From Micromonospora sp. WMMD1155 (GTDB lineage Bacteria > Actinomycetota > Actinomycetes > Mycobacteriales > Micromonosporaceae), in assembly GCF_029581275.1 (NCBI RefSeq), contig NZ_CP120742.1:5642501-5706500 (forward strand): a DNA stretch of 64,000 nucleotides, in the 5' to 3' direction. Positions 24,078-28,314 of the stretch are shown in pieces (positions within the stretch are counted from its first letter, which is position 1; each line of letters starts with the position of its first letter). The notes under the pieces are model-generated. The model ran no database searches, was not told the DNA's origin, and saw nothing but the letters and a program-made list of their open reading frames with translations. The position numbers were made by a program, and so were the translations under genes.

Positions 24078-26609
24078 TCAGCCCACCACCGACCGCAACG
24101 GCACCCGCGCGTCGCGCAACGCGCGTACCAGATCCTTCGCGAACGGGTGTTCGTCGGCCTGGAGTCCGCGCGGGTTCGGGATCACGACGTACGCCGAATC
24201 GTTCTTCGCGGACGCCTTCGCGTCGGTGGTGAAGCGTTCGACGATCGCCTGGGCGCGCGGCAGGTCCGCCGCCGCGACCTCGATGGTGATCGGTCGCCAA
24301 CCGCCGCCCAGGTCCGGTGTCACCGGCGCGGCGGCGGCGCTGGCGCGCGCCGCGTCGACGGCGGCCGTGCGCCGGGCGTCCGGCGTCGCGCCCGCCGGGT
24401 AGAGCAGCGCGTTGGCCACCAGGTGCAGACCATTCTCGTTGTACGCCCGGAAGAGCGGATTGAACGCGAACAGCACCGCCCGACCGGCCCCGGTCGGCTC
24501 GTCCACGACCGCCGCCGTGCCCTTGAGGGTGTCCGCGCCGACGGTGTAGCCGTTGGCCCAGAACGTGTCACCGGTCGGGTAGGTGAGCACGTTCGTCCCG
24601 GTGGTGCTCGGGGTGAGGATCGGGTCGCTGTTGTTGAACTCGAAGTCCTCCGCCGGGCGACCCGACGCCACCGGGCTGGAGACGTCCACGTCGACGCGCA
24701 GGTGCGAGCCGATCACCAGGTAGTCGGCGGGCTTGGTCTTCTCGGTGGTCGAGGTGAGCCCAGCCGCGCGAGCCAGCCGGGTGCCCTCGTTGCGCAGCCC
24801 CACGTAGGTGTGGCCCTGGGCGATCCACTCGCGCAGGTTGGCCTGACCGGCGGCGGTCAGACCGCCGGTGGGGCTGCTGCCGTCCGGCACCACCAGCACG
24901 GTACGCCCGGTGAACGCGGCGGTGTTGTCGTTGATGTCGGCGGTGGTGACCGGCTTCAGGTCGAGCCCCCACCGCTTGCCGAGCACGTAGCGCGCCTCGC
25001 CGTGCGAGCCCGACGTGGTGGAGATTCCGGTGCCCTGGAAGAGCCCGACGTCGGGCAGGTCGAGGCGGGTGCCGGTCGGTCGACCGCCCGGCGTGAGCGT
25101 CACCCCGAGCGACCTGGCCAGCTCGTCGACGGTCCGGCTGACGGTGGCCGTCGGGATGGCGACCCGGCTGCTCGCCAGGTCGCGGACCAGCGGGACACCG
25201 CGGTCGAGCAGGGTGAAGGTGAACTCGGCGGCGGCGGCCGAGTCCAGCGGGTACGTGTACGAACCCCACGGCCAGGCCGGGCCGGTGCGACCACCGGCGA
25301 TCTTCCGGACCAGCTCGGCGTTCGGCTTGACGGTGTCGCCGGTGTAGATGGCCGAGACGCCCATCAGCAGCGGGTTGCTCCAGGACGACACGTCGTAGAA
25401 GTACGGGAACGGCACGTACGGGTCCTCGCCCATGACGGCCTGGATCCAGTGCTTCTGCGGCTGGTCCATCGGGATCCAGTACGCCCCCTTGGGCACCGTC
25501 ACGTCGGTGGCGCTGCGCCCGCCGAAGACCCGTGCGGTGGGCACCCGGGTCGGTTTGCGCACCTCGTACACCTCGACGTCCATCCGGCGGAGCCGCTCGA
25601 CGAGCCGGCGGACGTCGGCGAGCTGCCGGTCGGGCAGCAGGAAGTACGAGCGGATCGTGACGTCCGGCACCGGGAACTGGACCTCGTTGGTGGGCTGCAC
25701 CACCTCGTTCGGCTCCAGCGTGCCCGCCCGGCCCTGGGCGAGCGCGTCGGTCCAGACGTCGTAGTAGCCGTCCAGCACCTCACGCTTGTTGGCGGCGGCC
25801 CAGCCCAGCGTCGACCACTGGGTGTGGAACTGCTGCTGCACGCGGTCGGCCACCGCCGAGGCGCTGCCCTTCTCGTACGTCATGCCGGCCGCACCGAAGC
25901 CGGTGGTCGGCACGGTGTCGCCGTACCCCATGAAGAACATGTCGTACGTGTCGTAGTTGAAGTAGCACTCGGTGATGACGGTGTCGTCGCAGGCGCCGTT
26001 GAAACCGAAGCCGGCCTTGTTGGCCTCGCCGATCCGGTTGATCCAGTCCACCGCCTCGCCGGCGATCTCGTGGTGGATCGGGTCGGCGTTGGGCGGGAAG
26101 AAGTACTGCCGGCCGCCCATCTCGTGGGCGTCGACGAACACCTGTGGCGGGTAGCGACGCAGCAGGTCGAGCTTGCCGTCGGTCTCCTGCTGGGTGCGGG
26201 CGAACCAGTCCCGGTTCAGGTCGAAGCCGAACTCGTTCTGCCGCCGCGTCGCGTCCCGGCCGTCCGGGTTCTGGGTGGGGACGATGATGGTGACCAGGTT
26301 GTCGTTGCGCCGTGCGACCTCGCAGGACAGGCCCGCCGCCAACTCGTACAGGGTCTTGAGCGCCGCGTCGGTGCCGCTCTTCTCGCCGCCGTGCACGTTG
26401 GCGGTGACCCAGACGATGGCCGGGCTGTTCTTCGCGGTACGGGCGGCCGTCCGCGCGGTGGTCCGGCGCGGGTCGCGCAGGTCCCGTACGTCGTCGGCGA
26501 TCTTCCGCAGGGCGGCGGGCCGCACGTTGCGCTCGTTGGACACCACCGCGTACGGCAGCGGCCGGCCGAGGACGCTGGTGGTCATCACTCCCGTGACGAC
26601 CCGGATGCT
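24078..26609 (-). pseudogene. M14 zinc carboxypeptidase, 3' part of a gene split by IS110 insertion
   Basis: This part encodes 843 residues of an M14-type secreted metallocarboxypeptidase: zinc ligands in VHGGEKSGTD, substrate-binding NPDGR and LNRDW, and the third zinc His in VFVDAHEMGG, followed by long C-terminal domains. An ATG near 26588 exists but leaves no signal peptide. Reading upstream in frame, SIRVVTGV joins to the element edge at 26609. The missing first 93 residues are at 27909-28187. The enzyme is therefore most likely inactive as exported protein, unless a truncated form is made. Confidence 0.9.
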
Positions 26610-26619
26610 CCTATAGAAG

Positions 26620-27675
26620 TCAAGGGGTGTTGAGGGCGGTGAAGTCGGCGAGGAGGGCGGTGTGGACCTCGCGGACGATGTAGCGCTTGAGGCAGCGCAT
26701 GATCTCTTTTTTGTTGAGTCCTTGTTTGGTGCGTTTGTCGACGTAGGCGCGGGTGCGGGGGTCGTAGCGCATGCGGACCAGGGCGATGGTGTGCAGGGCT
26801 GAGTTGGCGGCTCTATCGCCGCCGCGGTTGAGGCGGTGCCGATCGGTGCGTCCGCTGCTGGCGGGGATGGGTGCGGCTCCGCAGAGGTGGGCCAGGGCGG
26901 CGTCGGAACGCAGCCGGTCGGGGTTGTCGCCGGCGGTGGTCAGGAGCTGTCCGGCGACGTCGGGGCCGACGCCATAGACGGCGCTCAGGTGTGGGGCGGT
27001 GCGGGCGACGACGGGTCGTAGCCGGCGATCGGCCTGGTTGATCTCGGTGGTCAGGGTCTGGATCCGGGTGGCGATCACGGCCAGGGCCGCCTTGGTGGCT
27101 TCCACAGGGTCGGTGAGCCGGGTCTCGTTGACGGGCAGTGCGGCGCATCGGTTGACGAGTGTCGTTGCCGGACCGTTGAGTTCTTGGCGCAGCGTGTCGG
27201 GCGCGGAGGCGATCAGCCCGTGCAGCTGGTTGAGGGCAGCGGTGCGGGCCTTGACCGCTCCGCGTCGGGCGACCCGCAGGGCGCGGATGGCTTCGACGGG
27301 GCCGGTGCGGGTCTTGGGTGTGCCGTTGGCCTGCCCGGACAGGGCCGCGCGGGCAGCGGCGAGCGCGTCCAAGGGGTCGGACTTACCTTTGGCGCGGCGG
27401 GCCCGCCGATCGGGGCGGTCGACCTCGACCAGGGCGATGCCACGAGCGGTGAGGAAGCGGGCAAGTCCGGCGCCGTAGGTGCCGGTGCCTTCCACGCCTA
27501 CCTTCACCACCGCACCGAACCCCCGCAGCCAGGCCAGCAGGAGCTGGTAGCCGGCGGTGGTAGCCGGGAACTCCTGATCACCCAGAATCCGGCCGGCCTG
27601 ATCAACCGCCGCCGCGTGATGAGTCTTGCCGTGGGTATCGACTCCGCCTGTGACCTGACGCTTCCTGGCTGCCAT
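26620..27675 (-). CDS. IS110-family transposase (DEDD recombinase)
   Basis: The 351-residue protein has a RuvC-like N-terminal domain with the acidic set in GVDTHGKTHH, VGVEGTGTYG and KGKSDPLDALAAARAAL, a coiled-coil middle and the C-terminal Transposase_20 domain (LSAVYGVGPDVAGQLL, AHLCGAAPIPASSGRTDRHRLNRGGDRAAN) with the conserved Ser used in recombination. Length and motifs are intact, so the element may be active. The ATG at 27675 begins at the conserved N-terminus; an upstream ATG at 27720 would add 15 residues taken from the noncoding end. Confidence 0.94.
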   Translation of the reverse strand: MAARKRQVTGGVDTHGKTHHAAAVDQAGRILGDQEFPATTAGYQLLLAWLRGFGAVVKVGVEGTGTYGAGLARFLTARGIALVEVDRPDRRARRAKGKSDPLDALAAARAALSGQANGTPKTRTGPVEAIRALRVARRGAVKARTAALNQLHGLIASAPDTLRQELNGPATTLVNRCAALPVNETRLTDPVEATKAALAVIATRIQTLTTEINQADRRLRPVVARTAPHLSAVYGVGPDVAGQLLTTAGDNPDRLRSDAALAHLCGAAPIPASSGRTDRHRLNRGGDRAANSALHTIALVRMRYDPRTRAYVDKRTKQGLNKKEIMRCLKRYIVREVHTALLADFTALNTP

Positions 27676-27739
27676 GCTGAAACCGTCGTCCCTCTCGCTT
27701 GCACCGAACAGGGTCGGCACGCACCGCCGGGACGGGCGG

Positions 27740-27906
27740 ACAGGACAGTGATGGGACCTCTTGCACAGGCTCCTATCAGGTCACGAACGCCCCGCAGGTG
27801 AGTGCAGGAACGGGTCACCCGGACAGGCCGACGAATCCGCTAGAAGACGCCAACGTCAGTCAGAGGCTGAGTCAGACCAGCCGGGTGATCCGCTCCTACA
27901 TCCTCA
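27740..27906 (-). ncRNA. Candidate bridge RNA in the 5' noncoding end of the IS110 element
   Basis: Read on the minus strand, this stretch holds GCCTCTGAC (27867-27859), identical to nine bases of the M14 target flank next to the core (27917-27909), followed by a GACG-TTGG-CGTC hairpin. Further on it holds ATAGGAG (27776-27770), identical to the other element end plus its AG core (26614-26608), followed by TCACT, the reverse complement of AGTGA at the 5' element edge. Guide segments on both sides of two loops are the known design of IS110 bridge RNAs. Exact RNA ends are not visible. Confidence 0.6.
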
Positions 27907-27908
27907 CT

Positions 27909-28187
27909 GTCAGAGGCGCTGTCGACGGCCCCGAGGTACGTCCGGATCTCGTCGTTGGTGACGACCCGTTCCTGCCCCGTGCCGAGGGGGAAGCCGAGCA
28001 CGGACTCCGGGCTCGGCACGGTGCCCAGCCGGGCGTTCGGGTCACTGCCGCACCGCGACGGTGGGGCGGCGCTCGCTGTCGACGTGCCGCTGACCAGGGG
28101 AGCCATGCCGAGCAGGAGCGCGACGGTGGCGGCACCTGCCAGCCGTTTCGGAGGGACCGTCCAGAACGGACGCGACGATGGGGCCAT
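27909..28187 (-). pseudogene. M14 zinc carboxypeptidase, 5' part of the IS-split gene
   Basis: The first 93 codons read MAPSSRPFWTVPPKRLAG, a signal peptide ending near TASAAPP, and PSPESVLGFPLGTGQERVVTNDEIRTYLGAVDSASD, the N-terminal propeptide-like region seen in secreted M14 peptidases (P-S-P-x-x-x-x-G). Beyond 27909 the frame runs into the element and stops after about 20 foreign residues at a TAG. Joined to 24078-26609 it gives a 936-residue preprotein. Confidence 0.88.
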
Positions 28188-28314
28188 GTCTCGGGTTCCC
28201 TTCTCGGGAAGAGCCTCGCAGTGGCCGGAGCCTATGAACCGGCCGACACCATGGTCAAGGTCTGATCGACTTCGACGACCGGCCGGGATGCCGACGCGCT
28301 GACGGGCTGGCAGG

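Follow-up and report, generated by a model that had tools for sequence, protein, structure and literature searches.

Introduction

Bridge RNAs of IS110 elements have already been described as a kind (PMC11208160). According to the accessible text of the reports on IS621, a recombinase with DEDD and Tnp domains is combined in this element with an RNA encoded in a long left end, which features a target loop followed by a donor loop, and the same arrangement is found at the locus described here (PMC11208160, PMC11208158). Likewise, the left guides correspond to the top strand and the right guides are complementary to it in both cases (PMC11208160). The handshake bases A81/U82 of the IS621 RNA were described to face donor A6/T7 (PMC11208158), a role taken by an AT at the present locus. 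For the IS1111 group, a noncoding seekRNA with segments pairing to both target strands was reported (PMC11187229), which is a further common feature; the RNA of this group is stated to lie in the right end and to be accompanied by long subterminal inverted repeats (PMC11208160). A literature search for IS110 together with Micromonospora returned a match that, judged by its title, concerns Streptomyces genomics.

The present analysis deals with an insertion sequence in a stretch of 64,000 nucleotides from Micromonospora sp. WMMD1155 (referred to as the window), whose genome comprises 7.34 Mb in one contig. The minus-strand left end of this IS110-group element almost certainly encodes a bridge RNA (seekRNA). 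An earlier sequence-only reading of the same DNA had proposed such an RNA with target and donor guides, and this proposal is supported by the sibling copies, the predicted fold and the joint change of guides and targets, with the core and the second target guide being corrected.

The Element and Its Exchange Site

The element, its targets and its donor ends are located as follows, the targets and donors being derived from the flanks of the copies and from empty sites:

26605..27908, minus strand: IS110-group element of 1304 bp with a single shared C at 26604 / 27909 (six identical copies with differing flanks, empty sites)
27909..27916, minus strand: left target CCTCTGAC (t1-t8), inside the interrupted M14 peptidase gene
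26600..26604, minus strand: right target CCGGG (t8 onward)
26605..26614, minus strand: left donor ATAGGAGCAT, the right end of the element
27903..27908, minus strand: right donor AGTGAG, the left end of the element

The element search of the window's genome gave eight matches, six of 1314-1321 bp at 100% identity and two short ones. The flanks of all six copies start with CCYCTGAC/AGTGAGG and end with GGAGCAT/CC. Comparison with empty sites revealed that a filled site equals the empty site plus 1305 bp with one C in common and no duplication beyond the short core; the ends set in this way comprise 233 nt on the left and 15 nt on the right. An AG core, as assumed in the sequence-only reading, corresponds to the joined site CTGACAGCATCC, a pattern without occurrence in the window's genome. 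This candidate was dropped, as the M14 site is uninterrupted in the ten relatives fetched and is in all ten of them 6 nt shorter than the AG core predicts, with two further sites concurring. For the insertion sites of copies L074 and L071, 11 and 12 loci, respectively, were examined: L119 and L120 read CCTCTGACCCGAGCC, L131 and L132 read CCTCTGACCGC, the remaining loci were diverged or carried small insertions, and a CAT directly after CTGAC was present in none of the 11 and 12 loci. Since the empty sites have a form like CCTCTGA-C-CG, only the C is shared, the element extends from 26605 to 27908 and the final CAT belongs to the element. Around this single shared base, most sites feature C-C or C-G in the target and the donor reads C-A, t9 and d9 being different.

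In the window, the element splits an M14 peptidase gene into two parts (24078-26604 and 27909-28190) with reading frames on both sides, the larger of which matches Peptidase_M14 (PF00246, E 2.9e-13).

The Recombinase

26620..27675, minus strand: DEDD/RuvC-Tnp recombinase, 351 aa (PF01548 and PF02371; NF033542)

Both the N-terminal DEDD RuvC domain (PF01548) and the C-terminal Tnp domain (PF02371) are present in the encoded protein, which is matched by the model of IS110 RNA-guided transposases (NF033542) at 173.8 bits with a cut-off of 140. By its sequence, the element is assigned to the IS110 group. With a threshold of E<=0.01, IS621 was the sole PDB sequence matching the recombinase (two weak stretches, E 1.2e-5); E62, D100, D103 and S274 align opposite IS621 E60, D102, D105 and S241, and D13 is placed by motif only. 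The closest named relatives of the transposase are those of Micromonospora.

Guides of the Predicted Bridge RNA

The following segments were assigned to the RNA and its two loops:

27715..27899, minus strand: predicted bridge RNA (the span is that of covariance model R1, not of the RNA termini)
27859..27866, minus strand: left target guide (LTG) CCTCTGAC (matches at t1-t8, permutation test)
27846..27857, minus strand: hairpin GACG-TTGG-CGTC between LTG and RTG (fold and alignment)
27837..27841, minus strand: right target guide (RTG) AGCGG (table of site matches)
27835..27836, minus strand: handshake guide AT of the target loop, facing donor d6-d7 (AT)
27769..27776, minus strand: left donor guide (LDG) ATAGGAGC, the same sequence as in the right end
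27746..27751, minus strand: right donor guide (RDG) TCACTG, pairing with donor CAGTGA (d8-d13)
27744..27745, minus strand: handshake guide TC of the donor loop, pairing with target t6-t7 (GA)

In both loops, the left guide represents the top strand and the right guide its complement, and each handshake guide faces the opposite DNA. The nine bases GCCTCTGAC noticed in the sequence-only reading are present at both places, 27909-27917 (left flank, minus strand) and 27859-27867 (5' noncoding end), and the small hairpin described behind them was recovered as well. Such a match is indeed unlikely by chance, as the chance of finding a random 9-mer of the window in the 185-nt RNA is 0.23% and that for an 8-mer 0.83%; the sibling and relative tests given below are far stronger evidence for the guide than this estimate. 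The second target guide had been considered poor (GGAT only) owing to a wrong register: the actual RTG pairs with target C-C-G, and the AT behind it faces the donor and not the target. At five of the six own sites, the RTG pairs with t8-t10 (one of these t8-t11) and at the sixth with t8-t9.

On the donor side, ATAGGAG (27770-27776) was correctly recognized as equal to the opposite end (26608-26614), but the AG it contains is not the core, as the empty sites show one C. In each of the 37 distinct left ends of the elements compared, the LDG follows the right end as far as ATAGGAG and then deviates from it at d6 and d8. Likewise, the complementarity of TCACT (27747-27751) to the near end stands, with the guide being one base longer (TCACTG) and including the core C. 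The element ends vary too little to compare covariation of the donor guides.

The handshake AT of the target loop is found in 36/37 distinct left ends. In the donor loop, the first handshake base pairs with t7 in 35/37 left ends and the second with t6 in 21/37; in a lineage with 70% identity (16 of the 37), this second base is unpaired with t6. The donor-loop handshake changes together with the target in L184 and L187. The element L184 carries the LTG GGGGTAAC, the target TGGGTAAC and the donor-loop handshake TT opposite AA at t6-t7, its guide and handshake both suiting the altered target; no gene clearly ends at the TAA.

Joint Change of Guide and Insertion Site

All six copies in the window's genome, which had been named as a test in the sequence-only reading, lie at sites matching the LTG CCTCTGAC, four of them at 8/8 and two at 7/8. 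Among siblings and relatives, the guide region and the left end were located in 57 elements with 37 distinct left ends, both guides being readable in 55. After removal of L175 (a truncated element) and five repeated sites, 49 distinct sites with 12 LTG types were obtained. L187 and L222 were left out because their guides were unread by the pattern; by eye, L187 matches its own flank over 10 nt and L222 at 7/8. The right-target counts refer to 44 sites, as five of the 49 were without a usable right flank. L076, L094, L099, and L108 had no junction in the junction set, L076 being restored later without a right target.

Across the 49 sites, the LTG matched its own target at t1 in 46, t2 in 47, t3 in 46, t4-t6 in 49, t7 in 48, and t8 in 49 cases. 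Positions outside the LTG matched poorly (t0 in 19, t-1 in 6), and eight bases of the proposed nine-base guide are thereby borne out, the ninth (G, t0) being not generally part of it. On the right side, matches were counted at t8 in 44, t9 in 43, t10 in 34, t11 in 26, t12 in 21, and t13 in 20 of the 44 sites. As the CGGCAGAC type makes up 16 of the 49 sites, permutation was done over types and not over sites; a further guide, that of L081, reads GCGCTGAC. Own LTGs matched 4.83 of five variable positions vs. 2.30 for swapped ones, and none of 100,000 permutations was as good. For the RTG (10 types), own guides matched 2.04 of the three positions t9-t11 vs. 1.00, which was reached by 2/100,000 permutations and, over t9-t12, by 0/100,000. 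Beyond the elements in model R1, 62 matches in chosen loci were condensed to 46 with one row per distinct guide. Their comparison with the own flanks gave 32 guides at >=7/8, including 19 at 8/8, and 14 at <=6/8, with 4.6% of 1688 swapped pairs reaching 7/8 and 0.24% reaching 8/8. Guide and insertion site have evidently changed together across related bacteria.

A site recognized by the protein alone, with the guide-like copy in the left end representing captured flanking DNA or a relic, would account for the strand-identical 8-mer common to left end and target, as capture would yield the same. It is nevertheless very improbable, since the matching segment lies at the same place of the same RNA loop in several lineages, on opposite strands for LTG vs. 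RTG, and is exchanged together with the target; besides, it is present in each of the six copies, whose loci differ. Even less credence is given to a structured left end serving only as a regulatory leader of the transposase with coincidental guide matches. Its position directly upstream of the transposase is in line with a leader, but a leader would not change together with the insertion site, and 0/100,000 permutations reached the observed match. A leader role in addition to the bridge RNA may exist. A bridge RNA whose guides are read against the insertion site is retained as the preferred explanation.

RNA Structure and Occurrence

Folding of the left end predicted a two-loop RNA with the target loop followed by the donor loop, as the sequence-only reading had expected. 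The minimum free energy of 27720-27893 was -76.9 kcal/mol vs. -67.8 (sd 4.2) for shuffled sequences (z -2.17, 8/200 shuffles at least equal), a fold only moderately better than shuffles. The predicted fold contains no separate 5' stem-loop, and the target loop is placed on a long basal stem, both arms of which were defined by fold and arm-swap:

27881..27897, minus strand: basal stem below the target-binding loop, 5' arm
27806..27822, minus strand: basal stem below the target-binding loop, 3' arm

RNAalifold, applied to 30 aligned left ends, gave 36 pairs, eight of them changed on both sides, with a weak covariation term (-2.16). The basal stem was absent from this result on the MAFFT alignment because its arms are too different between lineages, and it was therefore tested by arm swapping. 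Own arms reached -34.3 kcal/mol vs. -20.5 for swapped ones (0/100,000 permutations), and the own arm was the best partner in 8 of 11 representatives drawn from 35 usable left ends. By these predicted energies, the basal stem is kept by compensatory change between lineages.

A covariance-model search, which had been suggested as a check, marked one strong place in the window by means of R1 (E 3.3e-34, by construction, as the element is included in R1), the next match having E 0.69. In the window's genome, R1 matched the six copies only (E<=0.001), and under stricter filters matches were found in 50 of 296 genomes of the class. Rfam gave nothing at gathering in the whole window; for 27600-28000, one microRNA match (E 0.16, 23.1 bits vs. 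a cut-off of 100) was the only one, i.e., no matching family. In genome G449 (C12:331903-332418 and C1:11878-12294), bridge-RNA matches occur in tandem, their starts being about 230-330 nt apart.

Predicted Circle Junction and Proposed Mechanism

Two promoter-like motifs at the element's ends would come together only in a circular form:

26618..26623, minus strand: right-end -35-like TTGACT, which overlaps the stop codon of the transposase
27900..27905, minus strand: left-end -10-like GAGGAT, which would be spaced 17 nt from the -35 only after circularization

When the ends were joined on sequence alone, TTGA(C/T)-N17-GA(G/T)GAT was found at 25 of 29 distinct circle junctions. Exceptions are L102 and L184 with TTGAC at a spacing of 18, L226 with TCGACC and L187 without such a -10. 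A putative sigma-70-like promoter would thus be rebuilt across the circle junction.

By analogy to IS621, excision would yield a circle whose junction joins the right-end -35 to the left-end -10 and drives the RNA, and the DEDD recombinase would be loaded with it. One dimer would then read the genomic ...CCTCTGA-C-CG... via the target loop and the other the circle junction ATAGGAGCAT-C-AGTGA via the donor loop; strand exchange at the C would be followed by insertion of the element. The target sequence on which recombinase and RNA would act is CCTCTGACCG.

A genuine bridge RNA that no longer works, its six copies being old and immobile, appears improbable. The copies are identical, their reading frame is open, both the guides and the promoter halves are intact, and relatives of up to 96% identity have empty sites. 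The identity of the copies, their intact parts and the empty sites suggest recent activity.

Stop Codons, Palindromes and Unusual Relatives

Among 31 distinct insertion sites of the form nnnnnTGAC, the TGA is the in-frame stop of the upstream gene in 22. As a baseline, the first 30 occurrences by coordinate of two such bare motifs (155 and 88 occurrences) gave a stop in 25/60 cases (10/30 in genome G000, 15/30 in G046), resulting in a Fisher p of 0.007 for the excess. The underlying classifier of gene ends was trained on 31 ORFs of the window and was right on 27 of those 31. Stop-codon placement applies to four of the six own copies, the window's own copy and L073 being placed otherwise. Given the baseline, a guide ending in CTGAC meets stop codons often by itself, with insertions doing so more often still. 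Selection against insertions inside genes or neutral survival behind genes may explain the excess.

LTGs of this kind in the lineage read CTC-TGA-C, GTC-TGA-C, GCC-TGA-C, CGC-TGA-C, and GAC-TGA-C. As a tentative idea, which we consider rather doubtful at present, the bridge RNAs of this lineage might be tuned to translation stops, with an LTG composed of a sense codon, TGA and C and with the element inserting directly behind genes that stay unbroken, while a sister lineage with the same RNA scaffold would be aimed at a palindromic repeat. If true, stop-tuned guides would represent a natural safe-harbour program. A literature search for IS110 with stop or termination codons found nothing on insertion behind stops in titles and abstract beginnings; in the accessible text of PMC11187229, "stop codon" is absent and "termination codon" occurs once, for the transposase gene.

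In the lineage with 70% identity (L089-L093, L095-L098, L100, L101), the left flank is an arm of a palindrome of about 150 bp, GCCATCCCG...CGGGATGGC, in 11 of 11 aligned cases. Empty copies of this repeat exist, L287 reading GGCAGA-C-GGGATGGC, and the window's genome contains four matches.

Further relatives feature unusual arrangements. Two bridge-RNA matches on the same strand flank one IS110 transposase in L241 (2269-2448 and 3512-3695) and L208 (2254-2436 and 3521-3708). The upstream RNA has kept its target loop (LTG 8/8 in L241, 7/8 in L208) and has a donor loop without ATAGGAG; the downstream RNA, situated in the right end, features a target loop and an LDG-like ATAAGAGC. Possibly, this arrangement is an intermediate between IS110 (left-end RNA) and IS1111 (right-end RNA). 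In Arthrobacter and its kin (L198, L199, L202, L206, L207, L209, L212, L224), the right-end-like ATAGGAGCATC is separated from the transposase match by about 0.7-2.1 kb, an interval containing open frames, one of which is an ECF sigma factor (L207). Based on these frames before the putative end, these IS110 elements may carry passenger genes.

The natural variation in a GC-rich actinomycete allows the bridge RNA model to be tested independently: within each lineage, the guides, the targets, the basal stem and the first handshake base are matched to one another. It further offers naturally programmed pairs of guide and target, together with an exchange site where a single shared C takes the place of a CT core. 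Through the lineages at stop codons and palindromes, the reprogramming of guides in evolution becomes testable; these lineages also suggest recombinases which insert behind genes.

Comparison With Known Systems

As far as the published description of IS621 extends in its accessible text, the circle-junction promoter and the handshake guides found here also fit this element. Differences concern the core, which is a CT dinucleotide in IS621 and one shared C in the window element, and the LDG, which reaches the core in IS621, whereas that of the window element stops short of it. In addition, IS621 features a REP-site target and a separate 5' stem-loop; here, the target is ...CTGA-C-CG and a long basal stem occurs in the predicted fold. 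In contrast to the IS1111 group as described, the RNA of the window element lies in the left end, its right end comprising merely 15 nt. Elements inserting into REP palindromes (PMC1525189), as outlined in the available part of that report, resemble the sister lineage with 70% identity in being directed into a palindrome arm, whereas the lineage of the window element uses TGAC.
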